NCBI GenBank assembly: GCA_905221605.1
Contig: CAJNDS010002845.1
Location: 656,713-720,712 of the forward strand
Direction of reading: 5' to 3'
Length of the DNA: 64,000 nt
From: Symbiodinium natans
Taxonomy: Eukaryota > Sar > Dinophyceae > Suessiales > Symbiodiniaceae
This document shows positions 9,084-63,322 of the stretch, in pieces. The notes beneath the pieces were generated by a model, which saw nothing but the letters and a program-made list of their open reading frames with translations, was not told where the DNA came from and made no database searches. The position numbers and the translations under genes are program-made. Each line of letters starts with the position of its first letter. Position 1 is the first letter of the stretch.

Positions 9084-11860
9084 GTGACGCTGTTCTTCTC
9101 AGACATGGCCTCCTTCACAAGCAACTTGGCAGTGAATGGCCTGGAAACCAGGCGGTTGCTGGGTACCGGAGGGGCCAAGAAGGGAAAGGAGCAGCAACAA
9201 CACCAATCTGTCGCAATCACTAGCTTAGACCATTGAAGCTTGGACCTGCAGCATCGTCTCAGCTAAAACCCTGGTGTATCTCACCACACCGCAGTATTCG
9301 TAGCCCCAAAACTCAGTGCCGAGCAACACAACGACAATTCTTTCTTGTAGTGCAAAGCGGAAGGTAGCACAAAGACCAGTATGCACGTGTGTGTGTGTGT
9401 ATTCATATTACTCGAATGTGAAGTAGCTCCCACAAGCGGCAACACAGCTCTCAGGAGGTTCGTCGGGACCCATGTAGTTTGAAGATGATGGCCAGAATTA
9501 CAGGGCCAGGCCTCCGGCGCCAGTATTTGCCCAACAAGCAAATCACTGGAGGGGAACCCAACCAATCTGGTCGGTACAGTCATCAATTGACAAATGAGAG
9601 GTGATGTTGAGGAAATCGGGCGGGGGGGGGGGGGTGGGGCAGGCAGCAGCTAGAACGATGCTCAGGGAAAGCCTTCGTGATGTGTTAACCAAGCCTCTGA
9701 TCGTGAAGCACCGATTGCTGATTGCATGACTGCTTGTCTCTCCTCTCCCTCTCTCTCTTTGTGTCTGTTCTTTCTCTGTCTCTCTCTTTCTGTCCTCGCT
9801 TGCTCGCTCGCTGCCTATCTGTCCCTCCCTCTCTCTCTCTCTCACTTTCCCGCTCTGATGAGGTGCAGGCCACAATGATGTGTGAAGACAGAATCGGAAG
9901 CTGTGGAAGAGTAAGCGACTAGCTCCCGGTGGATGAGCTGCCTGTGGATGAGCTGCCACTGTGTTTATTCATGCAGGTATTGTCGAGAAGCTGGAGCCAG
10001 AACAGACGCTGCTACTTCTTAGTCGATACTTCAACGACATGTCGGAAGTGCCGCTTGCCTGCAGCCGTTAAAAGGTGCCCTACGTTTGCATGCTCTTCGC
10101 TTGCGCCTCTCGAATGTCGTTGTGAATTGCATGTGCGAGCAGTTTCTCAGTGGCAGCGGACCGTTAGACTTTGCCAGAAGTCACGAGCTGTATCAGTTGG
10201 GGGTCTCAGAACCTTGGAAAGCCCGTTCTTTTGCTGGGATTTGCTTCTCAGTTCAGGCATGAGCTCCAGCAAGTAGAAGCCCCACAGAATCACAGCAGCA
10301 AGATACCCGTCCCTATATGCCCTGCGAGGATTGACAAGTTCGGCGGCATCGTGATTGAGTTCATTGGCGATGCTATCTATGCCGTCTTTGGGGCGCCGGT
10401 GCGGAACCGGGAGCATGCAGAGGCAGCTTGATGTGAGCTCCAGGGTTCATGCTATTCGAATTGCTCTGCTCGTTGATTTTATTTGTCTACTCTATGCTGA
10501 AAGATGGATAGCTGGACAGGTAGATAGCTGTAGTCCAGGAAGGGAGCAACTTGTGCCGTCAGATCTGATGCACGGGCCACGTCAGCAAGCTTACATCATC
10601 CAGATTTTCCAGAGCTGTGGGCATCATGGGCAGGCGGGCGCGAAAGCCATGATTAAGATGCTGAAGACTGTGCAGCGCATCAATGCCTGGGCGAAGCAGC
10701 GACTGCTTCCCGAGGCGGGCCTCTTGTCGGAGTTCTTGTGTGTTGAGACAATAGACTCAACAGACGCAATAGACGATGCTCACTCTAGCAGAGGATTCCA
10801 TTGCCAAAGAAGTGCAATCTTTGACAGTCTGGAAGTGGCTTATTTTCACAAAGTCCGTGGATCAGCCCTTGCAGGTCAGCATCCGCTGCGGCTTACATTC
10901 CGGCCCTGTTCAAGTCGGAAACATGGGCTTCCACTCGCGGCTCAAGTACGGAGTCATGGGTACCTCAACTTTGGCTTCAGCTAGCTTAGCAGCTACCTCG
11001 TGCAATAAGTGTGCAGTCACTGCAGTCGTTTCGTTGTCCTTTACGGCTTCGACCATTTTGCCTGCCGTTCTTTGGAAGTCCTCTGTGCTATTGCTGTTTT
11101 GTTTCTTTGCTTGTTGCTCTCAAGGCTCAGATCAAGTTAGCTGGCAGCTAGGTTGGCGCTTCCAGGGACTGGGATCTGCCACTGCACGCCTTCTTTAGTT
11201 CTTGTGAGCCTGTGGCAGAGGCTTCGTGAGAGGCTAAATTACAAGGTGCAACGCCAAACTTGTTCTTCTCGCTCCTGTGGGTACGTTACGGTTACGTAAG
11301 TTAAGTCCAAAGCTCAGCTACTCAGGCGCCGGCTCAGAGATTCCCTCGAAGCTGGAGGAGACACCACAGCCACAAAATGAAGATTCCGAGTGCCACTGGG
11401 TCACTGGATGACTGCGTCTTTGCTCACTTGCTGTTAGGGATGAACGGATACGAAGCCAAGTTCGAAACTGCAGCAAAGGGATGTCCTGAACAATGCACAC
11501 GATTCATCTCGATTCCACATCGGCTCGGCAGCTTCAGGAGATGAACAAAACCTACGGCACCCACAACCTCATCTCTGAGTCGACATTCCACAAGTTGCCA
11601 CCAGATGAGCCCCCCAGCTGCACCGTTCTCTTGGAACCGGCTAACTCTGGAAGAGGAGGTCTGGCTTTGGATGTTCAACCATAGTCACCGTGCTGGCGCA
11701 GGGTCAAGAGTTAAGAGTGACTTGCTGTGCAGGTATGTGATGAGACCCATCGACTTCGTGGACATGTCGTGCCTTGGCCACTGAACCGATGAACCGCTCT
11801 TTCACCAAGTGAACCTTCAGGGAAAATCAGGTGCATGTCATGTTGGATAAGACGATTCGG
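9084..11860 (+). CDS. Class III adenylate/guanylate cyclase catalytic domain, multi-exon
   Basis: The product makes a cyclic nucleotide (cAMP or cGMP) from the NTP. Exons read in phase: 9084-9120 (VTLFFSDMASFTS, first metal Asp), 9977-10040 (IVEKLEPEQTLLLLSRYFND), 10329-10425 (GGIVIEFIGDAIYAVFGAP, second metal Asp), 10634-10714 (KMLKTVQRINAWAK), 10875-10959 (IRCGLHSGPVQVGNMG), 11326-11357 (EIPSKLE), 11538-11608 (EMNKTYGTHNLISE), 11733-11768 (YVMRPIDFVDM) and 11821 to about 11860 (ENQVHVML, end uncertain). Donors are GC at 9121, 10426, 10715 and 11609, GT at 10041, 10960 and 11769, and GA at 11358. Every acceptor is AG|G. Order and spacing match the complete catalytic domain. Odd points: Glu in the base-recognition position before FIGD, and Glu and Lys where the family usually has Asn and Arg near SRLE. 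The natural nucleotide is therefore uncertain. I could not find the stop codon. Confidence 0.9.
9385..9400. repeat. (GT)n microsatellite
   Basis: Short GT dinucleotide run within the cyclase intron 9121-9976. Confidence 0.8.
9735..9850. repeat. CT-rich polypyrimidine tract
   Basis: Dense CT repeats on the + strand, inside the GC-AG intron 9121-9976 of the cyclase gene. Its composition is the reverse complement of the GA-rich tract near 8.4 kb. Confidence 0.85.
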
Positions 11861-11999
11861 AATCTGAATCGTTGCGACCGGGTCTGTAAAGTCTACCTGG
11901 CAGAGAAAGACACCCTAAGATATCCCCACACCCCACACCTTCAGTTCTGAGCAAGTCATCCAAACGGGTGCTCGGGCATGGATCGGCAGTAGCAAAGCT

Positions 12000-13500
12000 C
12001 TGAAGCACTCCCTGACCCGTCCGAGTATAATTAGTGGTTCCTTGATGGCTGCCAAGCGGTGCATGCCTCCCTCCGTCATTGATATCAGACTTACTTACAG
12101 TATGTACTTAACAAGCTATATGGGTTGCTTGCCATGAAAGCCTGGAGCTTGAGAAGCCCGCACCTTCGTCGCCCCAATAATCCGTGCTGCGACATGCCGC
12201 AAGGATGCACGACTGTGGGGGGGGGGGAGGCAGGTCACTCCAGCAACAGCACGGGTATGGTGTATGGGCTGTTTACATCGGAACTCAAAATTTCAAGCCC
12301 TTACCCCGGCCTTGAGTGAGACAGAGCGAGAGAGAAGCTGCTGCAGGCACGGAGTGAACGATCCAGAGCCAGTCTACGAGGCAGACCTTGCATTGCAAGG
12401 TTGAAAGCCGGATTGCCTTGCACACTTCTTAAGTCTCGATCCGTCTGTATGGTGCCCTTGGGCTTGCCACAAGACCACCTAGGAGGTGCTCATGGTTACC
12501 AGGCAAGTTCAGTTGCGGCACAGCCCCTGTGTAACGATTGAAACATGCAAAATGTTGCGTAGCAAACCTCGCAGGGCGTTTAAGCTCCCGTCCTGTAGAG
12601 CAGGGGGCAGCCTCTTGGTTTTGGCATCTCTTTGGAGGTGCTTCGCAGGTTCTGGGTTCTTTGTTCACTTTGTTCTCCCTCCCTGCCTCTGTCCTTTCCT
12701 CTTCCTCTTCCTCTTCCTCTTCCTCTTCCTCTTCCTCTTCCTCTTTCTCTTTCTCTTTCTCTTTCTCTTTCTCTTTCTCTTTCTCTTTCTCTTTCTCATG
12801 ACGCTGTGTTCGATCCATCCCGTCAGTTGTTCATGGAACTTAATTGTTAATTTGTGCACACGCCCTGCCAGATCATGAGCCAAATCGCGAGCATCGGTTC
12901 TCCGAGTACAAGGCTGCATGAGGGAAGTTTAAGGTTGCAAGGTTTGAGTGCCTCAAATGGTTCTTGAGTCTTCAGGCTGCACAGCATGTGATTCCATTCA
13001 CTGCTACGTTGGCTTCGGAGTGTGCCACGGGAGGTCGACCCGGCGAGACATGCTGGCTCGAAAGTATGAGAACCCTTGCCGCAAGAAGCCGCAGGGCACC
13101 AGAACCACAAAATCCTACAGAGTCCTCTGTGAGCTTGAACACCTTAAGTTAAGGCCATTGTCTGAGACCTGGCTGTTGCTCAGAATATGCTCATCCATGA
13201 ACACGAACCGCTGACATCTGAATAGGCGCAGCAGCCTCTTCCAGCCCCTGAAACTCCAAGTGCACAGTAGCTTCAGTAGCTCAGGACCGCCTTGGACATG
13301 TATACGGAGAAGAGATTCAGCAGGGCGGCAGCGCAGTTCAGAGAGGCCCCCGTTGCACGCTGGATGTTTCCAGGGGGGTCCTCTTGAAGTCTTGGGTCGG
13401 CTGATCTATTCTTTAAGGCTGTCTTCTGCTGGTAGACACGATGTAAAGCAGGCAAGGCTTCCAAACTTGGCTTTCAGATTTCAGGCCCCGGGCGCGTCGT
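12000..13500. other. No recognisable gene; holds a polypyrimidine array
   Basis: After the last cyclase exon I can place, I find no family-like sequence. Later cyclase exons or its 3' end may be here. The only structured element is the TTCCTC/TTTCTC array listed separately. Confidence 0.45.
12696..12797. repeat. (TTCCTC)n followed by (TTTCTC)n hexamer array
   Basis: About eight TTCCTC hexamers run straight into about nine TTTCTC hexamers, with a single clean switch near 12743. Long open frames on both strands here (poly-Ser/Phe/Leu or Lys-Arg) are artefacts of the array. Confidence 0.95.
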
Positions 13501-13518
13501 AAAGCCATCTGGTGCGCA

Positions 13519-13617
13519 AGGTCAGCACACTGATGGGCCAGACGTTTGGGATCTTCGACAAGCCCTCCGTCCTCATGAGGAAGAGGGCCGCTTACTACAT
13601 GCCCCCGGGCCTTGAAG
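13519..13617 (+). CDS. Orphan exon candidate, function unknown
   Basis: An uninterrupted frame after a GCGCAAG|GTCAGC boundary contains TFGIFDKPSVLMRKRAAYYM and PPGLE, with a plausible protein composition. I do not recognise the family. It lies about 1.7 kb after the last cyclase exon and could be a late cyclase exon or part of a separate gene. Exon limits are approximate. Confidence 0.3.
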
Positions 13618-15307
13618 TCAAACGGTCGGGGATGAAGGGAACTTGATTCTGGGCCAGTATCGGATGGCGTGAGTTTGGAGGGATGTGCCAGTCCTCTCTT
13701 TGCCCAGCTGTTGTCGTTCGCGGGGGGCTCCGTCCTAATCCCTTTCGGATGTCACAACCACAACTCCGACCCTGAACCTTGAAAGCCCAGCCCACCAAGG
13801 AAGCATCCTCCACCGGAGGGCTGGCAAGGAGTCTGGACGCGGCCACGGGAGCCTGATGAAACAGCGCCTTGTTGTGGTCAGAAACTTGCGGCGCAGTGTG
13901 GGCCCAGCTATTGTGTTCCTGCTCCTAATCCTGGAAGAGCCAGGGCAGGAAAAGTCCAGGGGTATGAATATTGCCACGATGTTTCCGAACGCTTGCTCCT
14001 TTTCCTGTTTCCCCGCGGTGATGTCCCCCCCAGGTGATCCTGACATTCTTGTCTTGCAACGAAGCAAAACAGGGGTGGCGGATCGATTGCCACGGCTTTT
14101 CTGTGTTTGAAGACCAGGGGCCTAGACGACTTGGTGCAATCGAGCAAGTCTTGTGCGTTGCGATGGGGCAAAATGGTGGCGGGTTCGACTTTTCGAAGCC
14201 TTCCTCCCAGAGAAGTTGGTGTTATCAATTCCTTGTGCATTTGCAGAAGCAAACGGTGCGGTTCGACAGCAGAATTGTCTGACGCCCCTTCCTTAAATCA
14301 AGAAAATGTGGTTCCATCAAGCCAGCTTGTGCTTCCCAATATTTGCTTGAAGTATCTTGCGCTTCAAAAGGGACACAGTGTGCACGTGCTGTCCAGGACG
14401 GGATCGAGGATGAGGTCGTCTACGTTTGCGTCTGACAGAGGCAGCTGGCAGCATCTGGCAACTAAGTGTCGAAGCCTCGTCTTGCGGGGATTTTTTCTCA
14501 GGACTTATGGAAGTCATCTTGAGGGCTATGGCAGCTATTGCAGTAGGTCATTAAGTCATGGGGCTTGTCCGTCCTGCAGGCCAAACAAAGCCCGTGGCCG
14601 CCTGGCCCCCGCCCCCCCCCAAACTCATGCAGGCTGCTTGTGAAAATTCAAGAGCCCAACGGGGGGATTGAATGGGTCAGATGTGTGCCCTTGGACCGAG
14701 CAGCAGGACGCAAAGCCCACTAAATGCAGTCCATTTGCAGCTTTTCGTCCAATCGGGCCACATCTGCATCCCACGTTGCAAAGCAATTCGCACAAGAGAA
14801 GTTCGAGCTCCAAAGGAGCGAACCATGCGGTGCCACGTGCGCTCAGACCACTGCCCAGCGACGGCTTCAGATGCTTCATGGGCTTGGTGCAGGTGCTGCA
14901 GCTGTCGAAGCTGCTGTAGAAGCTGTAGAATACGAATGCAACAACTTCACGCAGGACAGAGTCTCTGGCTCGGGATACCTCCTGTCCGGATACCTCGAGG
15001 GGTGATTTGGTCGAATTTGTTTTTGTTGACATTTGGTGTATCCGGATGGTGCCCGCATCAAGGGCGGTCTTAGAGTTCAGGGCGGCTTGGGTTTCAAGGT
15101 GTTGGGTTAAGTCAGGAGAATGCCACCGGATTGTCAAGGAACGAAGCACTCTCCAAGCATCCGGCAAGCCCAGACTTCCGATGAGTGTCCGACTACGATG
15201 CGCTCTCTTCGGGCGCAGTGGACGTCAGCAGCTCGGAGTCTGTTTGGGCATGTCTCCGTACAGTTCCTCCAAAATAGGAAGTAGGGAAATCTTGCGCCCT
15301 TTATGAG

Positions 15308-15434
15308 GTTCATCAACCCTCTTGCTGTGAAGCTCCCCTTTTTGAAAGCCACTCTCCATGGTGCCTTGCTATCGGGGTTCCTCTGCATTGCGTTGCATGC
15401 CCAAATCGATGAGGAGATGCTGGTTTTTTTTACA
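15308..15434 (+). CDS. Orphan exon candidate with a hydrophobic segment (possibly TRP-channel-like)
   Basis: After ATGAG|G the frame reads FINPLAVKLPFLKATLHG, then a hydrophobic stretch (LLSGFLCIALHA), then IDEEMLVFFT before a stop. The pattern 'F..P.VK' followed by a membrane helix recalls the pre-S1 to S1 region of TRP-type channels, but the match is weak and no other channel exon was found nearby. Exon ends are approximate. It could also be a chance open frame. Confidence 0.3.
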
Positions 15435-15439
15435 GGCCG

Positions 15440-18400
15440 GCCTTGAGCCTCTACGTCCCGTGCTTCACAAGAGAGCAAGAGAGATACCCGGGACAGCCAT
15501 CTTGAGGCCCTAAATCCCCCCCACACAGAGCTCAAAAAAGGCATTTAAGGGCCCCCAAACTCCAAGTCAGACGTCCAATCAGCCAGTAAGCCTGAAGATG
15601 GCCAAGTTATAGGCCGCCAGATCGCCACGGCAGGTCCTTCAACTTCAGCCGCCCAAATTGGCCGAATCACATCCTCGATTTCGCAGCAGTTTCTGGCCCG
15701 TTTGCTATCCTAGATTGCGTAGGGAAGTTCGGGGCGTGATGCGACGTACGTCTTTGAGTTCACTGTATACATAAATATATAGCACAAGCATGTGACACAC
15801 AGATCGGAGCGAGGCTTTCGAATTCTTCGCTACTTGCTTGTAAGAGTGTAAGAGTAAAGAGCCTGCTCTCACTCTATAGTCTATAGGTCCTGCAGTCCTG
15901 CCAAAGTCGGTCAACGGAAAGGAAGGGCTTGGAGCGCGTTTCACCCCGGCCATGCGAACGACATCCGTTTCTCTGGACGTCACTCTGGCTAGCTGTCCAA
16001 GCTTCAACAATCACTCAGACTTGAGACCAAAACAGGTCCATACAGCACTGAGAAATCTGTTCAACCCAGCATGTCAGAGACCATTCGAGAGGACGTGATT
16101 CTTGACCAAGGGCAGGGAGCAAAAGGGCCCTCGATGTGCGTTTAGGGACTTTGTATGGATGTGGGAGTCATAAGTTATATAGGGTGTCATAAGAAGGGTA
16201 GGTGTTTGCCTTCAGTTTTCCCCAGACCTACTGCGCCCGACCACTCTCTGCGTTGACCACAGTGCTCGTCTGTCGGCTCTCTACAGTGTAGGCTGGGTTG
16301 CTTGCAGGTTTCGGGTCCGAGATGCACAGTGGTCTCGGGCCCTTTCGAGTTTCCGTAAAGTATCGGCTTACTTCTGGGTCTGTATGTATTCAGAGACCAA
16401 AGAGGTATAGCCGGAGCCACAGACGTGATGGGCCAGGCCTCTTCCCTTGAGCCGCTGGGCCAGGCCGAAACGGTAGAGCGGTTGCGAGAGTTTGGGGGCT
16501 GGGGGAAGGTGGGAGGGTTCCAGGGCTTGGGGGGGACCGCGCACCGAATTCTTGAGTTCTTTTGCTGCATGCACTCCTGGAGGCTCGGAAATGTAGTGGA
16601 TTTGTTTTTGACACCGCATGCAGATTAATTGTAGTTCCGGCGTTAAGGCCGAGTCTTGTTCGCGTATGTCTGCACATCATGTCTGTTCTCACGGGCAGCG
16701 AGGTAATGAAACAACCGAGTCCTGGGTAGCCCACGTCGCTTGATTCGATGTCACGCAGCTGTAAAGCATCCACTCAAGTCCAAACGACAGCATGCGAGAG
16801 CTAAGTGTCAGTCACGACCACAAAGCAGTTTGGGGGAACTTCAAGGCTCGAACTTCACCTTCCGTATAGCTTTCTGGGTCGGGGCTTGCGATGCAGCGCC
16901 TCAAAGCTTTCTCCATGTCGTCTGGGATTGCAGGATTGGGTGTTGTTTTCGGGATCGTGGTGCTTTGGGGCTTTGGCGGCCTCGGGCTGGGAACCTGAGT
17001 TCGCTATGCCCGTTGGCGCGAGTTGGCACCGTGCGCCGCGCAGGCTCTCCGCGGCAGTGAGATTTGTTCTGAGCTCTTCAGGGGCCAATGGGCCAAATAA
17101 CCTCAAAAGCCCCGGAATCTCATCGTGATGTTCTAAGTCGCAGATGCCTTCCGAGATTCCGAGAGGCTTGTCGCCCTTGCAGCCATTGCAGCATTTGCCG
17201 CATCTGGATGTGGCGGCACTTTCGTTGCCAGGGCGCTCCGAAACGAATGAGTGTTCCAGTGCTTTTGGGTCGTTTATAGTAGCTGCTGATTCCAGGCTTT
17301 CTGAAGTTTCAGGGTTGGTCTCGGCTTGGGTTGACATCCTGTCTTGCAGGCGGCAACAAGGAGAGGGTAAGTCGAGCCGAAAGCGAACCGCGGACCTAAG
17401 AATCCTGCAACAAAAAAAATTGCAATGAGGCGCTGAGATAGCTGACCCGCAGCTAAGTTTGTTGGCGACGTTGGGGCCATTGTGACGGCTCCATACCGCT
17501 TTGCTCGGCTTGCGACGATCACGAAGGACGGCAGAGATCCTTGGGACTAGGAGTCTAGGGGAGTTTAATAGAGTTTAACTGCGACCATGGCGCGTCTTCT
17601 TGCTCTTCAATGCCTGTGTGCCGGGAACTGTTCAAAGACACATTGGGACACTTTGCATATCCAAGTTGTCCAAGTGTGCGGCACTTGCCTTGGAGTTTGC
17701 GTCGTGCTGCAAAATCGAGACCAATGCTTGCACACATCATAGGGCTCCCCCGATTCGTACTGAGCCATTGAATCACCAGGACGTTGCCGAGCGTGCCAAG
17801 GACGATGAGCGGGGAAGGGGGTTACGCAAAAGCATTGGGGCCATGTCTGGAGGGGATCGGAATACTATTCAGCACCAGATTCTTGTTGGCTTCAGGGGTG
17901 CCTGGCAGCTCTCATCCAATCAGAAGACACAGAAAGATTCGTTCAGAGCTGCAATCAATGCATCAGATGGCGGCCGGCAGGACCGCGCCAAGTCAAGACA
18001 GGTTTCGGAGGAGCGTTCCAAGAGTTTCGGCAGCACTTGTGGACATGTCGTACAGCACCATCCCTTCAGCCCTTACGCCGGGGAAGCCCGAAATCCTTGT
18101 TTGCACAGAACGAGAAGTTTTCCTTTGGCGCGCAGTCAGGGGGTGAGCTGCGACAGGGGCGATGCTTTGATCACTCGTCGCACGTTGGGTGAATATTCTG
18201 GGAGACCCCCTGTGGGGGACTGCAAAGCATCTTCCTCAGTGCAATCGCCAAAGCTCCATGCGGATCAGGTTTGTGCGTTTTCGTTTTAAGCTTCACCGGG
18301 CAATTTCGCGGCAGGCTTTCAGGCCTGGATCCCCAGCCCCCAGCCGTGCGGATCAGGAGTGGGAGCGGGGCGGCGAAGACCTTGAAGACTTTTCTACCAG

Positions 18401-20179
18401 ACTACATGAGGACTGCAGGCCTTCGAAGGTGTTTCTGTGCTTCAAGAGGCGTTTTCTTCGATGCAACTTCGTAGCAGGGGTCCTCAGGCCTGGTCTTGAA
18501 GCCTTGTCCCATGGCCTCCACTTCAAAGCTCAAAGTCCTGAAGCTGAAGCGGAACTAGGTGTTCTGCCACATAATTCGCTTCAGCCCCCAGGAGCCACGT
18601 CGTTGCAAGGACCCCGCCGGCGGAGTACCGGGATCTCCTGCACCTCATCAGCTTAGAGATTTGTTTTTGGGATTCAAGTGGCGAGAGGGCTGTGGTCACT
18701 TCCAGCATTCAATACTAGCTCGTTCTTGAGCTGAGAAGGGGGGGGGGGTTGAAAAACCCACAAGGACTTGATGTGAGGGTTTGAGAAAGTTGGGCTCGTG
18801 GTTTCAAGCGTTGAGCAGAACATTCATCCGCCTCGCGTTCCGAAACAGGAAAGCCCCAAAATGCACCAGTCGAGAACTGGCTTTTGGAAAGGTCAAGCAA
18901 AGGTAACGCTAGTTTTTAATGTGCCCCTCATCGCGCGTGCGAGCTTGGATCTTATCTCAAATCCTAAAGCAACCTCCCAATCTTGGCCCCGACCACATGT
19001 CGAATGCCTCAGTGATCGCATGCAAGCGTGTGCTTGAGCTGTTCTCCAGTTCAGGAACACATCTTTGACTTTGCTTCTCGACTCCGTGCTGGCGGAGGCC
19101 CCGGAGTCGGTCGAGAGCTTCTCCAGGGGTTCCCAATATTAAACCAGGAAGTTTGCGCACATCACCGAGGTGGTCAGTCCTTGTGTCACCGAGGTCTGTT
19201 TCAGGAACAGGTGTGCTTGCAGCCAGGGAAGGTAGTGCAGTTCACGTGGTTTCAGGGTATGTGTTGCAGTTTCACTGAACCTTCTTGCAGAGCTGATCTT
19301 GAGGTTTGAGGCAGCAGGAGTTTCAGGTCTTGTCTAGTTAGTCTAGTTCTTGTTTCGGCTCCGCCGGTGAGAGGACAATGTGGCGGAGGGCTGCTTCAGA
19401 TTTTCAGCTTCCCTTAGTGCCTGGAAGTGTGGGACGCAAGAATCGGTAGTGTAGTGCCCTGTTTCTGCTCGGTGCCGAGTTGGGCCGTTAAGATAGGGGG
19501 GTTCAGCCGAGAGCCAGACATCAGACAACCCTGGCGCAGGAACCTTTCGAGTTTGAACCCTACCACGAGGCCATTCGAGGCCGCCATCTTCTAAAGGTCG
19601 TTTGGGATCTTGTGGGGTGAGGCTTCGGCAAGCCGGCAAGCCGGCAAGCCGGCAAGCCGGCAAGTGTAAACATTTTGGTGGACTGGAGTTTGCAAGATTT
19701 TGCAAGATTTAGATAGTCTAGTCGGTGCTCAAGGAGTTGTCCTCCTTGCTTTTCAAGACATCGGAAAGACCTGCGGGCCAGTATGCAGCTGCAAGGTCCG
19801 GAGCTGGATCTTTACAGCTGGGGGAACAACTTCTTTCGTCCGATGATCAAGTGGCGCCACACACGCGTGGAGGCTCTGTGAGTTTGGCAGCAGCTTTGGG
19901 AACTTACGGTCGGTGCGCTGGGTTCACGTATGGGTTTGTGCTGCAGCGTTGGGCAAGGGTCTCGCCGTGGAGCGAGTACGTACCACCCCAACTAATCCCA
20001 AGAGGGGTCCTGAAATTCAAGGTCATGACGCCCTTCTCAAACGTAGCATAATGTTTTCGCGCCTTGGCGACGGCTCCGTGCCCTGGAGTTAGCATCTTAG
20101 CCACGATGTTTCTTTCGCTTGTGGCAAGACACGTAAACTCCCGACCTTAAGCCACAAGCTCGTCGCCACAGTGCTGCAG
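15440..20179. other. No convincing gene; may contain missing N-terminal GPAT exons
   Basis: I searched by eye for the conserved N-terminal GPAT segment (family motif around 'REPFDYY') and for transit-peptide-like starts, and found neither. Open frames such as 16855-17337 (-) and 17600-18289 (+) show no recognisable family. A GGCAAGCC octamer array lies at 19.6 kb. Confidence 0.4.
19626..19665. repeat. GGCAAGCC octamer tandem array
   Basis: About five head-to-tail copies of an 8-bp unit (ggcaagcc). Junctions between units create CCGG and GCCGGC palindromes. Confidence 0.9.
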
Positions 20180-23100
20180 GGTTCGCAGAACATTGAGTCC
20201 ATCCGTCAAAGCCTCGCCAAAGGTGACAACATAGCTCCTGGGCAGCAGGGAGCATGGATATTCCCGTGACACCAGGGCACCCGTTTGGGGGGAAGTTCCA
20301 GATGCCTTTTGTCCTGCAGGTGCTGCTTGCAAACCACCAGACCGAAGCAGATCCGCAGGTGCGTGATTATGTGGGGGGCATCCGCTATCCGCTTGGGATG
20401 TTGGGAGATGGCCGGGCTCCTTGTGCCTGATTTTCCAGGTAAGACAAGGCATGTGGGCTTAGCAGGGAGGCAAGCAGGCAGCCAAGCAATGAGGCCGTGC
20501 TGCTTTGAACTTTAAGCAACCTCTCGCGGGGTCAAAACCAAATTGTGCTTGGAAAGCCCCGATAGAACGCGTCAAATTCCACAACGTGCGCAATGTGTAT
20601 TCAGCCACTGGACAAATCCCAGTGCAACGTACGCAGGCTGAACAACCAGTCTAAAATCAACTTGTGTACTCACTTTCACACAGAGTGTGTAAGAGTAGGG
20701 ATTAGCTTTGGTGTAGTTCTGGGGTCAAAACCAAACTGCACATGCATGCACATGCTTAATTTAACGGACCTCTTGCAACAGCGTCCATTCCTGCTGCAGC
20801 CAAACCTCGAGTGCGCCTTTGACCTTAGGTGGCAGGAATGGGGGACAGGAAGCCGAAGAATGCATTGTGGGTTCCCAAAATCTGCTTGAAAGAACTGCTG
20901 AGACGCACCTTCAAAAACACGAGCCCCACCGCCACAGAGCCCAAGCGTTCTCTTCATCTCGCAACGTTTGTTTCGTTTTACCCATCGATCCGCGCCATCC
21001 CCGAGGATTTCTTCGCTCTGATGGGCAATTCCGCCTCTGATATGTATATTCGCGGTGGTCATCTGTGGTCCACAATGGGGTGTGTATTTGCACAGACTAG
21101 ATTCAACGCCACTTCGAGGGTACCAATGGCGCCGAGAAGTGAGGCGCCAAGCCCTTGATGTTTGCCTTGTCTTATGTTGGTTGCAAACATATCCGGTCTT
21201 GGCATCTTTCTGTGTCGTCTTGCCGGGCATGATGTAGCAGCATGTCTTCAACCCTAAACTCCAAATGCTGGGCTGTTCGTGAAATGTGAGAGTCGACAGG
21301 TGCTGTCCCTTCTATTGGAGAAAGAAGGATGCGAAGAAGTGGCCGAGAAGTGCATCCTGCAGTTACTTGTGAGGGCCGTGACGGCCAAGGTAACAAAAAT
21401 GGGGTTTCGGGTTGAGGGCTGGCTATAGGGGTTTATGAGTTTAAGCCTTCTGCATCTTGCCCGGCTAGCGGATCGGAGACCTGGATGTAGAAAAGCCTTC
21501 CGCGTCTGACACATCACATGTCACCTTTGCCTTCGAGCTGACTGTTACGGATCATGTCGCGCGCTGAGGTATCTTCGTTGCGGGGCACAAGGCAAGGCTT
21601 CAGACCTTTCCATCCGGCTTCACATCCGACGGAAGTCTGCTTTGTGGCCCGTGTGACCCTGCCATGCATGCCCAAGCCAATAGAACACAGACCAGGTTCA
21701 GCAAGAGGCTATTTTAATGAACCAGGCTGGTTGATACGTTGACGAGTCTGGCGAGTGCCCTTGCCCACGGAACATTTTCCCGGACTTGGCCCAGCCATTT
21801 ATTGAGAACTTTGTGAGCGTACGACAGGTGACCACCGACCGCCTCGCGATACCTTTCAGCTCCCTGGCAACATTGAGCCGTTGAAAAACTCTCTCACGCC
21901 TTACACTCCCATCACAGAAGGCCACTGTGCAACTGAGCGGCAGAAGCGCAAGGAGAAGGTGAGCAGCTCAGGCCAGGGACGGTACTTGCTGTCGATTTAC
22001 TCCAAGAAGTACTTGGACGAGGGCACTGAGGAGGCCTCTCAGTGCCGGTGATTTAAAGTTCTGCTTTGTCTCAAGAGGTCAAGCAAGGAGCTGATTGATT
22101 GTCAGTAGGGGTGACTTGCCCGTGCCCTCTTGAATTGAATGGTCTCAACCAGCACAAGAGGTGCCTTGCTGCTGTAGTGCTTTGGGCAGTCTGAAGTTAT
22201 GCCGTCTTTGATGGCTTACTGATTCGCCGGAGGGTTTCGCGGCTGCTGCCAGACCTCTTGGTTCCGGTCTGATGGACCCCTTCGCTCCTCCCAGTAACCC
22301 GCCGAAGAGCATTTCGAAGCCGATCTATTTCAACAAGATCGAGTTAACATGTGCGGCCGAACAATGTTGCAAATGGGCGGGGCTCTGGAAATCAAGCGTC
22401 TTTGTTTTCCGTCTGTGATTCTTCGAGAGTAGTAGTTATTCATGGGGCATGTGCCTCGGTAAGTAGGCTTCCGGATTTCGGTTTGAGGGCAGATTTGGGG
22501 GATCCTCGAGATGTTGGCCTCATGTCCCTGCCAGGAACAAGAGGCCAAGGCCGAACGCAACAAGAAGCCTCTCAGCTCAGACATGGAAGGGAAGAGTCAC
22601 TTGAGGGGTTATGAAGGATTCTGAAGACTCTTGGATCGCGTTTAAGATATGGCTTCTGACGTGATGCACGTGGCCGTATTGGCCAGTAGCTTCTGTGTGA
22701 CGACGGGGGGCCTGGCAGGTATTGCGCAGGCGAGGCACAGAATCCGTACCCTTAGGGACCTTAACAGAAAGAACAGTAATGAAGTTCCTTTAGCTCAATC
22801 GAAGTCCGAAGCCCTAGACCCAAGAGGACTGTGTCGGAGATGCAGCGTCTGATGAAGGAAGGAGGCCGGTTGGGGGTTACCCTGCTGCAAGTCGACATCC
22901 CCTAGGGCCCTACTCCATATTGTCCGGTCCCCTGTAGGCCACATCTTCTGGGTCGCGCCATCGGGCGGCCGTGACCGAAGGACGGCTGACCTCTTGGTAT
23001 TCTTGCACTAGGGCTGAGGCTTTTCTCATCATCACTCAGAAGAAGCCAAGCGTCAGCTCAAAGCATCAACGATCTGCCGCCGAAGAGGTCACTTGCGCTG

Positions 23101-27907: not shown

Positions 27908-27909
27908 GG

Positions 27910-29867: not shown

Positions 29868-31074
29868 GAGAGCTCCGGGAGCACCAGCGATGCGGAGATG
29901 AAGAAGAAGAAAGGAAATCGCGCCATGGGCAAGAAGAGCCTTTGAGCAAAAGTCCAACCAATCCGGTAACCCAAAGCTAGAGCTACAAGCCAGAAGTCTT
30001 GATGAAGCAGCTGGTGCACAGACCCAAATAATAAAGGCGCATAAGGCGTTTGCTCCAAAGCGGCCGTACATAGGAATGATGCACGACTTCTCTTTCCTCT
30101 TGACATATCAGGAAGTATCCGAAAGCTGTCAAGTATTACACGAAGGCGATCAAAATCGATCCGGAGAACGCAGCCTGGCCCAGCATTGGAGGGTTCCTCA
30201 GTCCACGCTTCAAAGGGTTTAGCGGTTTTTGTTTGCTACGATTCTTGCAGTGATGGCACCCCTCGTGTCGGGTGGGCTGAGGCCACCTACCATCTAAACC
30301 GGGCCATTGCCAATGCAGCGCTGGAGCTCTGGAAGGATGCGGAGGCACTGAAGTTACTAGCTGGATGCAGAAGGCCAGCAAAGCTAAAGGAAGGAGCAGC
30401 GGTCATTTCGATGGACTTGAGTTGTTGGTAGCGGTTGATCAGCGATTGAAGCTGGGCGCATTGACCTTCAGACTCTGTTGGCGTCAATCATGAACAACTC
30501 AGGAAATTCCGGATGCTCGATACAAGCTCCAGCCGTGCTACTGTTGCGTCCGAGGCCGATGCAGCGAATGCGGTGGAGCTGCAAGAGGACCAACCATCTT
30601 CCAAGATCCTTGGCAGCCTTCATGCAGAGAGCATTAAGGCGGGAGGGCGTCTAGTTGAGAGCAGGGTGGGAATGAAGGTGCGAGCGGGGTTCTCCAATCC
30701 CCTCGAACCAGAGTCGTGGAGAGCATCGTGTGCGAAGTGCATGCAAAGGCGTCCACGATTCGCATGCGAGTTGCACGAGCTTCTTTGTGTGGTTCTTTCC
30801 TGTTTAATGACCTTTACATTTTTTCAGTTTCTAGTCAAAGCTGTTTGCACCCCACCACGAAGCCATGAAGCAAAGATCAATGTCCCAGTTTACTTCCGGG
30901 CTATTGCGTATCTTTTGCCCTCGCAAGACCTCAGAACCCCGATAAGCACCCTGAAGCATACCCCCAAAGACAGGAGCTGCGTGCCCTGTTTCAATCCCAG
31001 AAAATCCCCCGAGGGGCCACTTCCAGCTTGCCCGGGCGCGCTTCCGCCGTGGCCGCTGCCGGGAAGCCCGCGAG
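29868..31074 (+). CDS. TPR protein, first module (co-chaperone-like TPRs)
   Basis: Exons in phase: 29868-29935 (DAEMKKKKGNRAMGKK), 30112-30172 (YPKAVKYYTKAIKIDPENA), 30282-30344 (ATYHLNRAIANAALELWKDA), 30555-30580 (ADAANAVEL) and 31014-31074 (GHFQLARARFRRGRCREARE). Donors are GA at 29936 and GC at 30173, 30345, 30581 and 31075. Together they give two to three tetratricopeptide repeats of the Hop/STI1/RPAP3 type: 'KKxGN', 'Y..AI..DP.N' and 'Y..NRA'. Lys, Asn and Asn at the first carboxylate-clamp positions are present, and basic residues occupy the last helix, so binding to an Hsp70/Hsp90 C-terminal EEVD tail is possible. The start codon was not found. This module runs in frame and on the same strand toward the TPRs at 32.5-36.4 kb, so I treat both as one gene. 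Confidence 0.75.
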
Positions 31075-42690: not shown

Positions 42691-42779
42691 AGGCCGAGCC
42701 ACACCTTTGCAAGGGAAACATGGCCGAGCGCTTTGCAACAAAAACCTCCGCTCATGTATGAAGTTGGGGTCGACAAGAA

Positions 42780-43735: not shown

Positions 43736-43744
43736 GGATTCGAA

Positions 43745-47514: not shown

Positions 47515-48275
47515 GAGCGCGCTTCAAAGCCCAAGAAACTTGTTGACGCCCATCATGTGAGCAGGGTGTTTGCAAGTGGGGGGGGGCTGCGCCCCCCCCC
47601 AACCCCCCCGCTTCTTTTAGGCCGTACCAAGCGTGCTTCAAAGCCCAAGAAACTAGTTGAGAAAAAAAAAACATCGTGTGAGCATTGTGTTTGCCGGGGG
47701 GGGCTGCGCCAACCCCCGCGCTTTTTTTTTGGCCGCGCAGAGCGTGCCTCAAAGCCCAAGAAACTTGTTGACGCCCATCGTGTGAGCAGGGTGTTTGCAA
47801 GTGGGGCGGGGGGGGGGGCTGCGCCCCCCAACCCCTCCCCGTTCTTTTAAGCCGTGCCAAGCGTGCTTCAAAGCCCAAGAAACTAGTTGAAAAAAACATC
47901 GTGTGAGCATTGTGTTTGCAAATGGGGGGGAGCTGCCCCCCCCCCCCCAACCCCCCCGCTTTTGTTTAAAGCCGTGCAGAGCGTGCTTCAAAGCCCAAGA
48001 AACTTGTTGACACCCATCATGTGAGCAGGGTGTTTGCAAATGGGGGGGCACTGCGCCCCCCCCAACCCCCCCCGCTTTCTAAGCAGTGCAAAGCGTGCGA
48101 AGCTGTTTTAAGCCGTGCAAAGCGTGCTTCAAAGCCTGTTGAAGCCCATCACATTGCGTTTGCAAATGGGGTGAGGGGGGGGGCTGGGGCTGCGCCCCCC
48201 CCAACCCTCCCGCTTTTTTTCAAGCCGTGCAGAGCGCGCTTCAAAGCCCAAGAACTTGTTGACACCCATCATGTG
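47515..48275. repeat. Alternating A/B hairpin repeat array (right part)
   Basis: Same A/B units as the left part. 47519-47720 closely resembles 45206-45420, and 47725-48190 closely resembles 44520-44960, including a shared variant unit with 'ctttctaa' and 'gcgtgcgaag'. The right part is therefore a rearranged copy of the left. Confidence 0.9.
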
Positions 48276-50950: not shown

Positions 50951-50956
50951 GTCGAG

Positions 50957-54761: not shown

Positions 54762-57700
54762 GTTCCTGTTGAACACCTCGGAGCAGGAGGATGCCATCAT
54801 CGAGAAGAAAGGGCCAATGATAGTGCAGCTTGGCTTCAGCGTGCAGGTTGCGGAGCGAACTCGTGAAAGGCACTCACCTTGTTGGTGATTCTGCCCGAAA
54901 GTCTGAAAACATTGGCAGTGGTAGCTGAGAAAACACCGACATATTGATATACTCAACACATGAGTTAAAGAGGTAGATGCCAACGAGTCTACGAGGTGGT
55001 ATAGTCGTAAGTGAGGTGAGTGCCAACCCATAGGCGCAAACCCACTGCAAAACTCAAATAAGCTCACCCTCTGCCAGGAATCCCGAAGGCGCCCACGATT
55101 GCGGATAAACAACTGCAGTAGCTTTAAGCTCTGTATAATTTCCGCTCCAGGATTGGGCGGAGCGGCTCCGGCAAGACCCTCTGCCGTCAGCTTAGAGAAG
55201 TTTGCCCAGCACAGGGATGAGTACCGGGGGTTGGGGGGGCTGGGCTGAAGGCAGTGACACGGTCAGTGAGTGCCACATACAGGTTGCGCCTATCGCATGT
55301 TCTACCAGTGGGTCGACTACTGGAAGAAGTCCATGGAGGTGCTTGCTAGAGCCGCCCGCAGTAGACGCGCCCAAACTACAAGTCGCTACGTCGCTACAAG
55401 TTAGGTGGCTAGCATGTGGCTTCAGGCAGATGGCGCCGCTTTGCTGTCCTCCGGAACCCGCGGCTTGGTCCACCTGAACCAGGTGCCACCTGAATCCTGT
55501 AGCCTCGATGCTTTGCACGCATTGACACAGCGTCTGCGCACACGAGTTCCGATCTCATGGCTTCTACGTGCTTCCGTTCCACGTACTTCAACAATCTTCA
55601 ACATAGGAACTGAACCCGGACACCCGATGTAGACAAGGTCCACGTTGAAACTGCTCCCCGCAGGTGTTTGTGACGCACAGTGCCAGCCTGGCAAACAAGG
55701 CCGGCTTGCCTTGCTAAAGAATAGGACTGAATAGGGTGTTTGACTCCAAGTTGACATTGTTGGAGTGTGGGATTTCGAGATCCACGCAGTCCGCCCAGCA
55801 CAGCTATGTTTCGGAGTTTACGGCAGAAAACAACCCAGTACTGGTCCACAATGCTCCAACTACATACATACTGCTGACGCGAGCTGCGTTGCTCCCCTCC
55901 TTCGTACTCACTGGGATTCCCCTCAAATGTTTTGGAAGGTAGTCTCTTCCCCATAACGTTGCCGACTAGCTGCAGAGAACGAGTATTTTGTTTTCCAACT
56001 TCTCTCAGTGCCGCAGGTGCTGGAGTACTTCTCGAATCTGCAGCTGAAAAGCCAGGCTGGTGTGTGGCTTCAGGTTTGGGGCATGTCATGTGGCCAGGCG
56101 TAATTCGTCTTTCTGCTGGCTCTATTTTCTTCCCATGTTCGATGCCTTTGCGGAAAAGGGGGAGAGGGAGAGAGGGAGAGGGGGGCGGAGAGGGAGGAGT
56201 GCAAGAACATTGGGATCCTGTGCCCACAGCCACCACGCTTGGCATTAAGTAGGGCCGGTGGGAACCGCCCGGGGGGGGGGCCTTGGCCCAAGCACGACAA
56301 AAGAAGGAAATGAAAGAGAGAGCAAGAGCACGAGAGAGTGAGCACCGTGATGCAGATATATGCAGATTGGCAGAATGTATCTGGCTGGAAATGGGCCCCA
56401 ATCGGAAGACAGCGAGGACACGGTGCCGCAGACGCGGCGTTCGGGGCTTCTGGAGCAATCAAGGCCTCAGCCCGTACTCCCAGTGATTTCAGCTTCTTGG
56501 GTTTGCATCGCGGGGTACCACAATAACAGCTTGTAAGAGCACGAAAGTTCGAAGGGATCACCGCACATCACTGGCGTGTCCTTGTTGCAGATCAGCCCTG
56601 GGAGGAGCATCCTGAGCCCCCAGCGTTTGAGCTGCTTGTCGTCTTTTCACGTTGTCGTTCGGCATAGAGGGCGAACACTCATCACTACTTACTATGAAGC
56701 CAATCAAAGTGTCAAGCAAGTTCGTGGCCCAAACCAACACACCTGGACCTTCAGATGAGCGCTCCGGACCCTATGCGCCTCGGAGGCATCCCGACAACAT
56801 CAAGCACGTGAAGAGCTTCCCGTTGTTCATCACGCCTGCGGGCTGAACAGGGTCTTTGGGATGGCTTGAAATTTTTTACGCGAGGTTTGCGGACGACAAG
56901 GTTGGGCTTCGTGAGCCTGCTTCTTCCCTGGTGGACGGTTTAGGGTTAGGGCTTAGGGTTTAGGAACTTACCTTATATCGCTGCTTGCGCAGGTATCGGA
57001 AGTTCCTCATCATGCTGGACGGTAGCCTGTCGCAAAGAGACGTGGACTTGCTTCGATGTCGTCGATGGCGCTTCTGCCAGAGAGCACCAACACAGTTGCC
57101 GAGGTTGCCTGGATCGGCCCTTCTTTCCACGGCGAAGCACCGGAGTTGTTCACCCAGACAAGGCGCATGAAGCGCCGAAGAAGTGAATTTTCTTGATGTT
57201 GGCCCTCTTAGAGCCCTAAACCCTACACCCTAGACCCTAAACCCTCACTTGTTTCTGGCCCCTCTTTTCCTTAGCTAACTCAGGTGGTCCAGGCAGAGGC
57301 TGCGGATGGCTTGGATCCCATCTCCGCCCTCCGCGAGCAGCGCCGAGCCGCCGTCAGGGCCCAGGCACCAGCTGTCCTGCTGGTCGCGACAAAGTTCAAT
57401 GCGGTGTCATCGGAAGCAGCAGATTGAGGGGCTCCTGCGCCAAAGCACGTCAGTTAGTGAAGATTTAGTGTCATGGCAGGCCTTCGGCCGGAACACTGCC
57501 ACCGCAGCACCGCGCCCGCAAATGCAGGATGTGCTCAAGCAAGCCACTCTAATCACTAATGCTGCGAGAGGCCATTGCATGCAGAGAGCTGGCGCGATCA
57601 TGACTTGCCCAGAACCGAGGCCGAGGACAGAGTGCTTTATGAGGTGGACTACGACCTCTTCAAGCTCAAGTTTTGGCCGAAGCTGTGCCAAAAGGCCCGG

Positions 57701-60700
57701 CTGGGGAAATCTGAAACCCTGAGACGAGCATGATCCGTAAGCCACTTGAGGTTCCCTCCGGCTGCGATGCTGTGCTGGTCTGGCGTGAGTTCATGCACCC
57801 TGGTGCTGAGAGATCATGACTTGAACGTCAATCGTAAGTAGTTGAGTTCTCGGCTTGGGGTGCCCGTGAATCACAATGTGACATGTCATGTGCAGCTGTG
57901 CGGGTTGCTGGATGTGTCCAAGCCCGTCTGAGCTTGCACAACGGGCATGCGCAGCGACGGCCGCACAGCAGTTCGCTCGTGATGCCCAGGTCATACATCA
58001 AGGGCTCCTACAAAGTGCTGGAGATCGGGGCTCGGGGATTGCGTTTCACTGATTGTAGCACGTAGGGTTTGCAAGGTTTCAGGTCGGCTTCCAGATCTCA
58101 TTCTGATCGGGGATTTGGCCGCCTCTGCTGCTTTCAAGTGGCAGTAGACTCAGTAGATGAGTGAGGATATAGGTCCCAGGGCCCTTAAACTGGTACAGCA
58201 TATTTCCTACGTTCTGCGTTTTGTGCCCGTCTTTCCAACCTGTAGGCACAGGTTGCAGAGGGCCGAGAATTAAGTAGGAAGCTACCAAATGCGGCGCTGG
58301 TGTTGAAGTTGACCTCATCGAGTGAGCCCACCAGAAATCGCAGGACTGCGAGCAAGGCTATTTGGACCTGGCAACCTATCAGGAGATCACAAGCAAGTGC
58401 TCACCAGGCCTAGCCGTAACCTTCATAAGAGTAGCAGAGGGGAGAGGGGGTAGCCAGGATTCATGGTCATACAAAAGCCACATCCTACCCCTTCGGTGGC
58501 CTTGTCATCCGCTTAGGGACTCAGAGGATCGATTGGAGTGAAGCCTTAGACACTTAAGTTATCTTAAGTCATGACTTTGAGGCATGTGCTTCAAACATAC
58601 GCAGATTTCGCAGTTTCATTGGAACCAGGCCCAGAGGGTGGGCGAAGGTAGCCTCCTCTGGTCATTGCAGGTTTCAAAGACTTTCGGAAGGAGCCGCTTG
58701 GGCAAAGTGGAGGCAAGGAGGCTTGAGTTCGTTTCTTACTGCCCTCATCCACATACGGAGCGTGTTGGTTAAAGGGGGCGCACTGCAAGGGCTCGGATGA
58801 CCAGGTGTATCGCCAGGACGCATAGGCCCGCTGCGTAGCTTGTCCGGGCTCAGGATCTACGCAGCCTTCAAGACGTACGAGAAGCTCCGGGAGGAGTGGA
58901 ACTACTTCGACAGGCCACCGAGGGAAATCAGCCGTTGCGTGCGATTTATCTCGGCAACCCAAGGAAAGAGAACAGACACCTTGACTTATGATCCCGAAAA
59001 TTCCCCTGGAGGAGTTGCCCCAACACAAAACCTCGCCGCAAATCCCTAATCCCGATGCATCCAGTATGATAATCACTGGGTCAACAGCAATCAGTATCTC
59101 CAAAAAATGAAAACATCTTCGCTCTCGCTGGAGATCGTGCTAGCTCTTGCAAACTCGCGCAGATAGTATCAAAGACTTGCTGCATGCTTGTCCGAACAAC
59201 GGCCACAAGGACAAGGAAGAGAGATTGGGATTGACCACAAGTTGCAGGCATTCAAAGACCTCAGCCCTCACAGGAACCACAAGCCGAGAGTCCCGCTCGC
59301 TGAGCCCTCAACGAGGGCCCCAGCAAGAAAGGGCAAATTAGTTTGCGAGTGTGCGCGCCTCGTCTTCCCAAAGTGCTGTTTTTTCAGGCAGGAAAAGCTT
59401 GGTCTATTGAGGGCCTCCCTGCACAAATGGTTCCAAGATTTTGACTCTTTATACCTGAAGCCAGTTCCCTCTACAACCCTCTCTCTGGAAGCCACGATTT
59501 CAACCCAAGCCGCTAAAGCCCTGCCAGGATGGACGTCGCCCGCCATGTCATCCAGCAGCTGCAGCCTGCCTTACTACTCCTTGAAAGTGTTTCACAAATA
59601 AGCCTCAGCCAATCCGAAGCATCTGATGTGTCCTGGTTGTTGGAGAAATCTCTGAGCCGAGGAAGCGGAACCCTTACGATGGCCCTCCCATCCACTCGTC
59701 TGCCGTCGATGAAGTGCAAGATCTTGCCCAGCAGCTTTGTCGAACTAGGGGTGAGTTGGGGAGACGTGGGCTTGTCAGATAGAGCTTCATGGGCTTTACG
59801 TAATGTGTTCAGGGCTGCTGCTTGACACAAGGTGCCCAACATTAATGTGTACTCCTGGGGGAGCCACTCGCCGCTCCCAAACCCAGTGGCGAGTCTTGCA
59901 GAGCGCAGTTGACAAGTGATTGTTCAGGCTCGAGCTTGCGGTCTTCTTCATGGTGATGAAGAAGCCTTACGAGGAGCGGTCGTGTGCCAGTCAAGCTCAG
60001 TGGGCCAAGTTAGCTGCTGAACTTAGGATGCTTTCAGGTGGCACCTCCTCCCATGCCAGTTCTGTGGATTTGTAGCATTGTAAGGGCAGTATACAAGGTG
60101 CAGGACAGCAGACGACTGCCTCATACTGCGGTGGCTGTGGGACAATGTAGGACGCATCTTGAGTTTCAGTCTGGCCACCCCAGGAGCTTTTCCTGACGGG
60201 TGACACTTCGCAGACGGTGTCCCGTGCTGTGGAGTTTCGGTTCTGCGACCTCCAGTCCCATGGGTGCAAGCAGCTTTGATGGTTTGGGGCCCCGGCGCTC
60301 ATGGTCGAGCTGCCCGGAGGTTCATTCTCGACGAGCCCCAAGCAATCGCGGCAGCGGGTTTGCGTGTAGGACCGTGTAGGAGAGCAGCAGCCCAGGTCCA
60401 AAAGGAGTACCTCCTAGAAAAGAGCAGCCAAGGTCTCTCTTCCACTACTTCAACCCACGTGAGATGCTTGGTGACTTTTGGTTGGCGCTGGAGTACGGCG
60501 TAAGGGTTCCGTCTGGCAGGTTGCGTCTGGCAGAATGGGGGTGATTGGGGATGCATGAGGGTTGAGCCGGGTTTTGGGGCTGGAGGCTTCTAAGGCCGTC
60601 GGTACGCTTCGCTGTCTTAGTGGGAAACCATTGCGCATGCGTGTGACTGCGTGTGAGCTTGAATCATCAGGCAGTGAGGCGCTAGCACCCAGCGAAAGTC

Positions 60701-61860: not shown

Positions 61861-61891
<31 letters not shown>

Positions 61892-63322
61892 GAAGAAACG
61901 ATGTGAAAAGGGATCCAGACACGGAGCAGAAAATGCGTCGAGCAGCTAACCCCGAGCGGTTTGGAGATCGGGTGGAGGCGCCGCTCGAAGGCCGAGCTGA
62001 AGCCTGGGTGCATCCCCAGGTTGAAGGTCGTTGGACATTTGGCCGCCTATAGCTGGCTGCATCTGGAAAACTCTGCGACACACTTCCTCGCTTTCACTCG
62101 CTTCAATGAGGTATGCCATCGACAAGCTGCAAGCCGACACCGGCCACCGGGAGCCTCGGAACAGCACTTGAGTGAGGACAAGGATCACCATTGGCCACAG
62201 CATGTGACAGTTGCTCCAGTTTTGACCTGAGTGCACCTGGTGTTGTTCGTGGCACATTCTAGGTTTGCTCGCCGAACAGAACGACCAAACATCCACAGGG
62301 CCAGGCGACATGTTAGGATGCTTTTCCCGAAGGGGCCGTGTGGTCTGCAGGTTGGTTTGGAAAACAGACTGACGCAAGGCTCAAAAAATGCTAGACATCA
62401 GGAAGCGCTGGAAGCAGCCGTTGGATTTGCGAACAGCACCTGGAAGTACCTGAAACGAGCCGTTACACGCCTGCTTAGGATGGCGTGCTGCCTGTCATTG
62501 TCAAAGACGTGGCCTTGGAGGATGCGCTGCAGTGACGGAATGTGTGTCATGGGCTGTTGCCAGTATGCGTAGCTTCGGCTTCTTCGAGCATTCCGACTGC
62601 TGGTGAGGATCTGGCCCAGCATATGTTTAATCTCGATGGCTGTGCCTTGGCTAGAGCTAGAATGAATGTCAGGATCCAGCTGTTGCCTGTCCAGTGCGAA
62701 TGCTGCCTCACTACTTGCTTCAACGAGCCTGCCTGCCATCCACTGAACCAGGGCTACCCGAAGAGTGGATTAAGCAGGATACAGTTACAAGATGTTACAA
62801 GTTGAAAGCCTGAGGCAGTGCGGGCATTGCGTTTGGAGCCAGCCAGTGCATTCTCGCACGCGCCTAAGTGGTCGAGTCTGCAACGTGTTAGAGCCCACTG
62901 GCCGCTTTTCAGAACGCACATGCCAGGCCCAAAGCCTCAAAAACGGCCAATGATAACCAATAGCCCCCTGCAAGAAACGATTAATCCAGTGTGAGGTTCG
63001 CAATGAGGCTTCCAGACTCTTGGCAGCATTGTTTCCCAGCCTGCAGAAGTATTACTTGAATTAGATTTCTCTGAAAGCCTGCCCAGAACTTCGATGCAGA
63101 AGTCGTCAATTTCTGATCCAGTCGACACCCAGAAAATGTCAGCTCGTCCGAGATGATGGATGTCGTTGTTGCAAATCGAGGGCCAGAGCTCAAGTCTTTG
63201 AAGCCGCATCTCTAAGCGATGATCCTCATCGGAATCCTTCTTTGCAAGGAAAGAAGCTGCCCCCATCGCTGTCCAATGCCCTTGTGCTGACTGTGGAGCA
63301 ATCGAAGGGGCTGGAGTTCGAT
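54762..63322 (+). CDS. Superfamily 1 (UvrD/TRANK1-like) helicase core, about 22 exons, continues to the right
   Basis: ATP-dependent nucleic-acid helicase core. Exons and motifs in order: 54762-54837 (SEQEDAIIEKKG, Q motif), 55151-55185 (GRSGSGKTLC, motif I), 55283-55338 (YRMFYQWVDYWKK), 55664-55699 (VFVTHSASLANK, Ia), 56017-56055 (VLEYFSNLQ), about 56750-56833 (NIKHVKSFPLFI), 56993-57021 (YRKFLIMLDG), 57104 to about 57180 (RPFFPRRSTG), 57284 to about 57385, 57626 to about 57708 (YEVDYDLFKLKFWPKL), 57751-57794 (AVLVWREF), 57990-58029 (SYIKGSYKVLEIG), 58344-58396 (GYLDLATYQEITS), 58854-58913 (IYAAFKTYEKLREEWNYFD), 59528-59563 (DVARHVIQQL), 59662-59730 (VDEVQDLAQ, II), 59928-59970 (LELAVFFMVMKKPY), 60184 to about 60255 (LFLTGDTSQTVSR, III), 61246-61309 (LLINYRSHQ, IV), 62479 to about 62530 (GVLPVIVKDV) and 63249-63322 (LVLTVEQSKGLEFD, V). 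The 'FPLF.T..(F/Y)L.MLDG' and 'F..EIWP' segments are typical of TRANK1 relatives, not of bacterial UvrD. Motif VI must lie to the right. Confidence 0.88.
56156..56205. repeat. GA-rich tract
   Basis: Purine-rich gagagggagag repeats, probably in an intron of the helicase gene. Confidence 0.8.
56937..56964. repeat. Telomere-like TTTAGGG cluster
   Basis: Degenerate gtttagggttagggctta cluster in the GC-AG intron 56834-56992 of the helicase gene, about 30 bp before the acceptor. Confidence 0.8.
57213..57247. repeat. Telomere-like CCCTAAA cluster
   Basis: Four to five degenerate ccctaaa/ccctaca units just before the acceptor of the exon starting at 57284. Orientation is opposite to the cluster at 56.94 kb. 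Confidence 0.8.
61101..61156. repeat. GAA/GGA purine tract
   Basis: Imperfect gaagaagaagaggaag repeats in the helicase-gene interval between motifs III and IV, on the + strand. Confidence 0.9.
61315..61369. repeat. (TG)n / TGATTG tract
   Basis: Alternating tg with gattgattg insertions, starting a few bases after the motif IV exon (splice donor near 61310). Confidence 0.8.
61788..61890. repeat. (GAA)n triplet array, about 34 units
   Basis: A nearly perfect GAA/AAG run of roughly 100 bp in an intron-sized gap of the helicase gene. Poly-Glu, poly-Lys and poly-Phe frames here are artefacts. Confidence 0.95.

Follow-up and report, generated by a model that had tools for sequence, protein, structure and literature searches.

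How does a spliceosome read introns whose 5' splice sites begin mostly with GC rather than GT? The question is raised by a 64,000-base stretch of the Symbiodinium natans genome (contig CAJNDS010002845.1, here C2533:656713-720712; hereafter, the window), in which a first-pass annotation had drawn 44 introns across cyclase, acyltransferase, tetratricopeptide repeat (TPR) and helicase genes and reported GC as the majority donor. The window belongs to a genome of 759.4 Mb in 2543 contigs. Where we tested it, the reported majority held: 8 of 10 re-derived window introns have GC donors and 2 have GT, and HSP70 genes of the same genome gave 12 GC, 5 GA and 1 GT. Our reading, to which we give a probability of about 0.88, is one of ordinary spliceosomal introns in a dinoflagellate of the Symbiodinium type, with GC as the genome's commonest 5' splice site and canonical U1 and U6, where U1 would pair mostly with the border sequence AG/G (the slash marks the splice border) and accept any of C, T and A at position +2. 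That independent genes elsewhere in the genome also favor GC supports this reading.

The 44 junctions were not listed individually, so they were rebuilt afresh, and 10 could be fixed. Every acceptor had been described as AG/G. All 10 agree with that description, which is only partly independent evidence because AG/G was used to place the TPR and helicase junctions. The cyclase calls are the strongest of the re-derived junctions, which are as follows.

9084..9120, + strand: cyclase exon VTLFFSDMASFT, within the spliced domain matching PF00211 at 69.4 bits
9121..9976, + strand: cyclase intron 1, GC-AG with AG/G acceptor, from the 3r5g alignment with acceptor bonus, paralog C2317 and the Pfam score
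10050..10328, + strand: cyclase intron 2, GC-AG, from alignments without splice-site preference (2w01 and the paralog) and the Pfam score
10423..10633, + strand: cyclase intron 3, GC-AG, from a paralog exon that runs on across the join with little likeness downstream, and the Pfam score
10715..10874, + strand: cyclase intron 4, GC-AG, from LPE/VSIRCG, gapless against 2w01, and the Pfam score, with the smallest margin
30173..30281, + strand: TPR-gene intron, GC-AG, from PENA/ATYHLNRA, with a TPR_11 match spanning the join below the cut-off
54825..55150, + strand: helicase intron before the P-loop, GC-AG, from the presumed family motif order
55183..55282, + strand: helicase intron after the P-loop, GC-AG, from GKTLC/CAYRMF, presumably a family motif
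55339..55425, + strand: helicase intron, GT-AG, a re-derived junction
55483..55663, + strand: helicase intron, GT-AG, from LNQ/VFVTHS
59731..59927, + strand: helicase intron after VDEVQDLAQ, GC-AG, the least certain of the 10

Joining the cyclase exons at the four GC donors yields an uninterrupted PF00211 match, with residues 1-122 aligned to profile positions 9-125. Around these introns lie 46 in-frame, open GT-AG alternatives (11, 17, 7 and 11 for introns 1 to 4), and Pfam scoring covered 6 of the 46. All six fell below the 69.4 bits of the GC joins: 65.6 bits at intron 1, 59.6 and 56.6 at intron 2, 64.8 at intron 3, and 67.7 and 64.0 at intron 4, where the margin is smallest (1.7 bits). The intron 1 alternative gives a protein of equal length, and what favors the GC join there is the paralog, C2317, which aligns over query residues 1-34 without a break at join 1 (71% identity) and reads FTTIVES with no intron. 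The next exon of the paralog runs through join 2. Across join 3 the paralog again has an unbroken exon, with hardly any similarity downstream, which makes the absence of an intron less clear. Aligned without splice-site preference, the paralog placed join 2 to the base and join 1 to within a synonymous shift; join 3 was not recovered in that alignment, which chose other borders. Spliced alignment of the region to fragments of three solved structures was rejected as too permissive. Those alignments placed intron 1 exactly in one run (3r5g, with acceptor bonus) and intron 2 exactly in both 2w01 runs, one of them without any splice-site preference, and gave single borders only for introns 3 and 4.

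The paralog (L079, 1500-2175) differs from the window gene in its intron positions; it carries a GT-AG intron and what is probably a GA-AG intron at places without one in the window cyclase. A TC-rich tract in cyclase intron 1 (window 9722-9858) has at least 104 similar places in the genome and is low-complexity sequence, not a family of introns. The repeats met by a 1,417-base query, which took in introns 1 and 2 and part of intron 3, were confined to a low-complexity tract, in a search that skips common words. Elsewhere in the window, the TPR_11 match across the TPR join scored 23.6 bits against a cut-off of 26.8 bits. The helicase joins follow the motif order that we take to be that of TRANK1/UvrD-like helicases, and the joined helicase peptide gave Pfam matches below the cut-off.

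The HSP70 genes served as a control with no donor preference. They were aligned to an intron-free paralog of the same genome (C2349) by a spliced aligner that rewarded only AG and AG/G acceptors. The donor counts given above come from 18 distinct positions among 21 well-anchored ones; p8, p11 and p226 were left out because near-identical copies disagree. Positions p249/p250 and p504 were left out for weak local identity, and the genes C2418 and C2116 (identity 0.36-0.38) were set aside. Each position was counted once across the tandem copies C538a-c and across the C102/C1864 copies; p68 entered as GC, with GT in one (C102e) of its seven copies. Copy C1002b lay outside the acceptor-rewarded alignment. 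When the aligner was given no preference for any splice site, an AG/G register was still available in one copy or more at 14 of the 18 positions (GC 9, GA 4, GT 1). With GC over GT in a control without donor preference, the GC excess is not reader bias.

Pooling the window introns with the HSP70 introns, weaker positions included, gave 37 introns with 27 GC, 5 GA, 4 GT and 1 GG donors. From gene C1002, positions p24, p60 and p252 are in the 37 and outside the 18, whereas p7, p290, p297 and p318 were left out. From C1805, only G-initial donors with AG/G were kept; this filter is biased, and results are therefore also given without C1805 and C1002. All 37 acceptors read AG followed by G, a pattern that had itself been rewarded or relied on when they were placed. 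Several equivalent registers per intron arise from the direct repeats that flank it, and none of the 32 GC or GA introns of the pooled set has an equivalent GT-AG register.

We then asked of the genome what its U1 genes look like. Rfam matches to U1 number 16, a lower bound, as five exact pattern sites lie outside that list. The 5' end AAACUUACCUGG occurs in 15 of the 16, and the canonical U1 5' end, ACUUACCUG, is present in 15 of the 16 Rfam matches and in all 20 exact pattern matches, read as genes rather than as RNA. Those 20 came from a pattern in which the base facing +2 was left open, and all carry the canonical A. The four U6 matches read have the canonical ACAGAGA box. Because the U1 and U6 genes are canonical, U1 would pair mostly with the AG/G at the exon-intron border and tolerate C, T or A at +2, and the U1 genes suggest tolerance of GC as a mismatch at +2, not an altered U1 that reads it. 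How U1 recognizes GC donors, a question raised in the first-pass annotation, is in this way partly answered: the genes read canonical at the 5' end, and tolerance of the mismatch is what we infer from them. No published U1 5' end for Symbiodinium was found among the matches listed in a literature search; for Crypthecodinium, the isolation of U1 to U6 in 1983 is cited in an excerpt of PMC5029490. In our genome, tandem units at G000:C479:101379-130056 (L009-L013 and L024) carry genes for U1, U4, U5, U6, signal recognition particle RNA and 5S RNA, and all six kinds occur together in L009.

The borders themselves point to how such donors may have arisen. The AG/G acceptor would produce a short direct repeat at both ends of most introns, and across the 37 introns the direct repeat between an intron's own ends averages 3.59, a value reached by none of 500 shuffles; for mixed pairs the average is 3.04 (standard deviation, 0.14). 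The second donor base equals the second exon base after the acceptor in 22 of the 37 (13.9 expected; p = 0.0005). A weak match was seen at +3 (p = 0.049), and no excess was found at the other positions tested in these introns. Without the low-identity genes C1805 and C1002, the +2 match is 13 of 25 (8.6 expected; p = 0.028). The match hints at copied target-site repeats. In S. microadriaticum, intron-creating transposons (introners) make 4-bp duplications from which the 5' splice site is taken (PMC9860276, in excerpt), and the +2 match would fit the same origin here. Many donors may thus derive from AGGN target-site duplications made by introners, of which they would be the upstream copy.

Several observations weigh against our reading, and we set them beside the rival explanations that they touch. 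The check covered 10 of the 44 junctions, those with GC or GT donors in the cyclase, TPR and helicase genes that could be fixed, and they were placed from genomic DNA. The GC count could be an artefact of exon ends chosen by eye, with true GT donors a few bases away: the calls were manual, direct repeats blur the borders, the four cyclase introns have their 46 open GT-AG alternatives (one of equal length at intron 1), and the margin at intron 4 is slim. We consider this very improbable, since the HSP70 alignment without donor preference still puts GC over GT, equivalent registers offer no GT-AG choice, the six alternatives scored are all lower, and the paralog agrees with the GC join at cyclase introns 1 and 2. 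A variant U1, changed at position 7, might instead read GC or GA donors. One U1 copy, L023 (35.5 bits), is diverged at the canonical 5' end, and 16 looser U1-like sites with one or two mismatches were found when a reversed control gave none. Six of these looser sites, known from the pattern match alone, have G or T facing +2:

C1446:57122; C1668:381982 and 408923: U1-like sites with G facing +2, by looser pattern match
C120:73623 (one mismatch); C104:69439; C558:597297: U1-like sites with T facing +2, by looser pattern match

The incompleteness of the Rfam list leaves room for such variants, but the canonical A in every exact pattern match and the absence of all six sites from the 16 Rfam matches make a variant U1 very improbable.

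Pairing with U1 beyond the border is weak. In animals and plants, GC-AG introns pair strongly with U1; here, pairing at +3 to +6 averages 1.16 of 4 over the 37 donors, which is not significantly above the 0.96 at 974 AGG[CAT] sites of the window, a comparison set that includes true donors (p = 0.09). The exon side does not make up for this at GC donors, where pairing at -3 to -1 averages 1.48 of 3, compared with 2.50 for the four GT donors, and the AG/G is incomplete at the donors, with A at -2 in 24 of 37 and G at -1 in 25 of 37. A downstream signal peculiar to dinoflagellates (CTTG at about +5 to +8) could replace U1 pairing, as C stands at +5 in 16 of 27 GC and all 5 GA donors, CTTG occurs early in 11 of 37 introns compared with 9.4% of inner windows, and GCNNCTTGG occurs in the window 17 times on the + strand and 5 times on the - strand. 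Strand counts in the window for GCNNCTTG (47 to 39) and AGG[CAT]N{1,3}CTTG (20 to 22) speak against such a signal, as does the flat GAAGGC-CTTGGCT spacing over gaps of 0 to 8 in a hand tally of 100 of 645 genome-wide matches, and we regard it as quite improbable. A CTTGG element after the donor, suggestive in the 37 introns, was likewise rejected, having no preferred genome-wide spacing among the matches listed. GAAGGC followed by CTTGGCT within 0 to 8 bases occurs 645 times genome-wide, compared with 111 for the reversed pattern. A further possibility is that the donor dinucleotide was not chosen for U1 at all: it may be a leftover of AGGN target-site duplication at intron insertion, its second base copying that of the exon, and a canonical U1 needing little beyond AG/G would have let GC become the majority. 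We hold this tentatively, as a doubtful proposal. The window's 10 introns alone show no excess of the +2 match (4, with 4.0 expected), and exonic AGGN composition was rejected as the cause of the GC majority, as HSP70-family coding sequence counts A 110, T 80, C 73 and G 61 (C in 73 of 324). Terminal inverted repeats are not in excess in 57 introns (own pairs, 4.37; other pairs, 4.45). Speaking against this negative, the DNA examined contains 53 CTTGGC...GCCAAG pairs, whereas 60 permuted hexamers average 10.9 and two reach 53. By eye, the 57-base intron C1805_338, outside the length limit of the repeat test, reads CTTGGCT...AGCCAAG.

An Rfam scan of the window gave no match at the gathering cut-off. 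Two + strand frames of 9001-24001, scanned against Pfam with stops as X, returned no family, probably because the exons are short. Dense tandem repeats occupy 42497-48098, between the TPR and helicase stretches, and a unit of about 200 bases is repeated about 7.5 times at 45980-47514.

The GC majority is real but already known for Symbiodinium. In excerpts of Aranda 2016 (PMC5177918), predominant donors are listed as "GC/GT/GA" for S. microadriaticum, "GT/GC/GA" for S. minutum and "GT/GC" for S. kawagutii. Table 1 of Farhat 2021 (PMC7789003), also in excerpt, gives 0.26 GT-AG and 73.95% GC|GA-AG in a column that we take to be S. microadriaticum by its mean intron length of 505, intron lengths being given in the excerpted PMC11453091. 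The window had been presented as striking for its GC majority, a view that these publications do not support; the first-pass count of 11 GT donors among 44 (25%) is typical. An oddity of dinoflagellate splicing that is both real and already published was thus recovered from sequence alone. On the published figures, gene finders restricted to GT-AG would miss about three-quarters of such introns. Most deserving of follow-up are the donor/exon base match and the canonical U1 genes. They offer a concrete, testable account of how such splice sites could originate and persist.

Among known systems, the closest is S. microadriaticum, whose donors, as excerpted from PMC5177918 and PMC7789003, also rank GC first, then GT, then GA, with about a quarter GT-AG; no difference from the donors here is seen in those excerpts. 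Its introners resemble our introns in a direct repeat that spans the 5' splice site (here over the 37 introns taken together; PMC9860276, in excerpt) and differ in that the 57 introns here showed no terminal inverted repeats. Breviolum (Symbiodinium) minutum, as described in part of a review (PMC4083563), shares GC, GT and GA donors, an AG acceptor often followed by G, and clustered small nuclear RNA genes like the tandem units on C479, but its GC donors nearly equal GT, whereas here GC is clearly above GT. Animals and plants also have GC-AG introns, mentioned in excerpts of PMC7789003 and PMC5029490, with the same GC donor and AG acceptor; they are a small minority there, whereas here they form the majority and pair weakly with U1.

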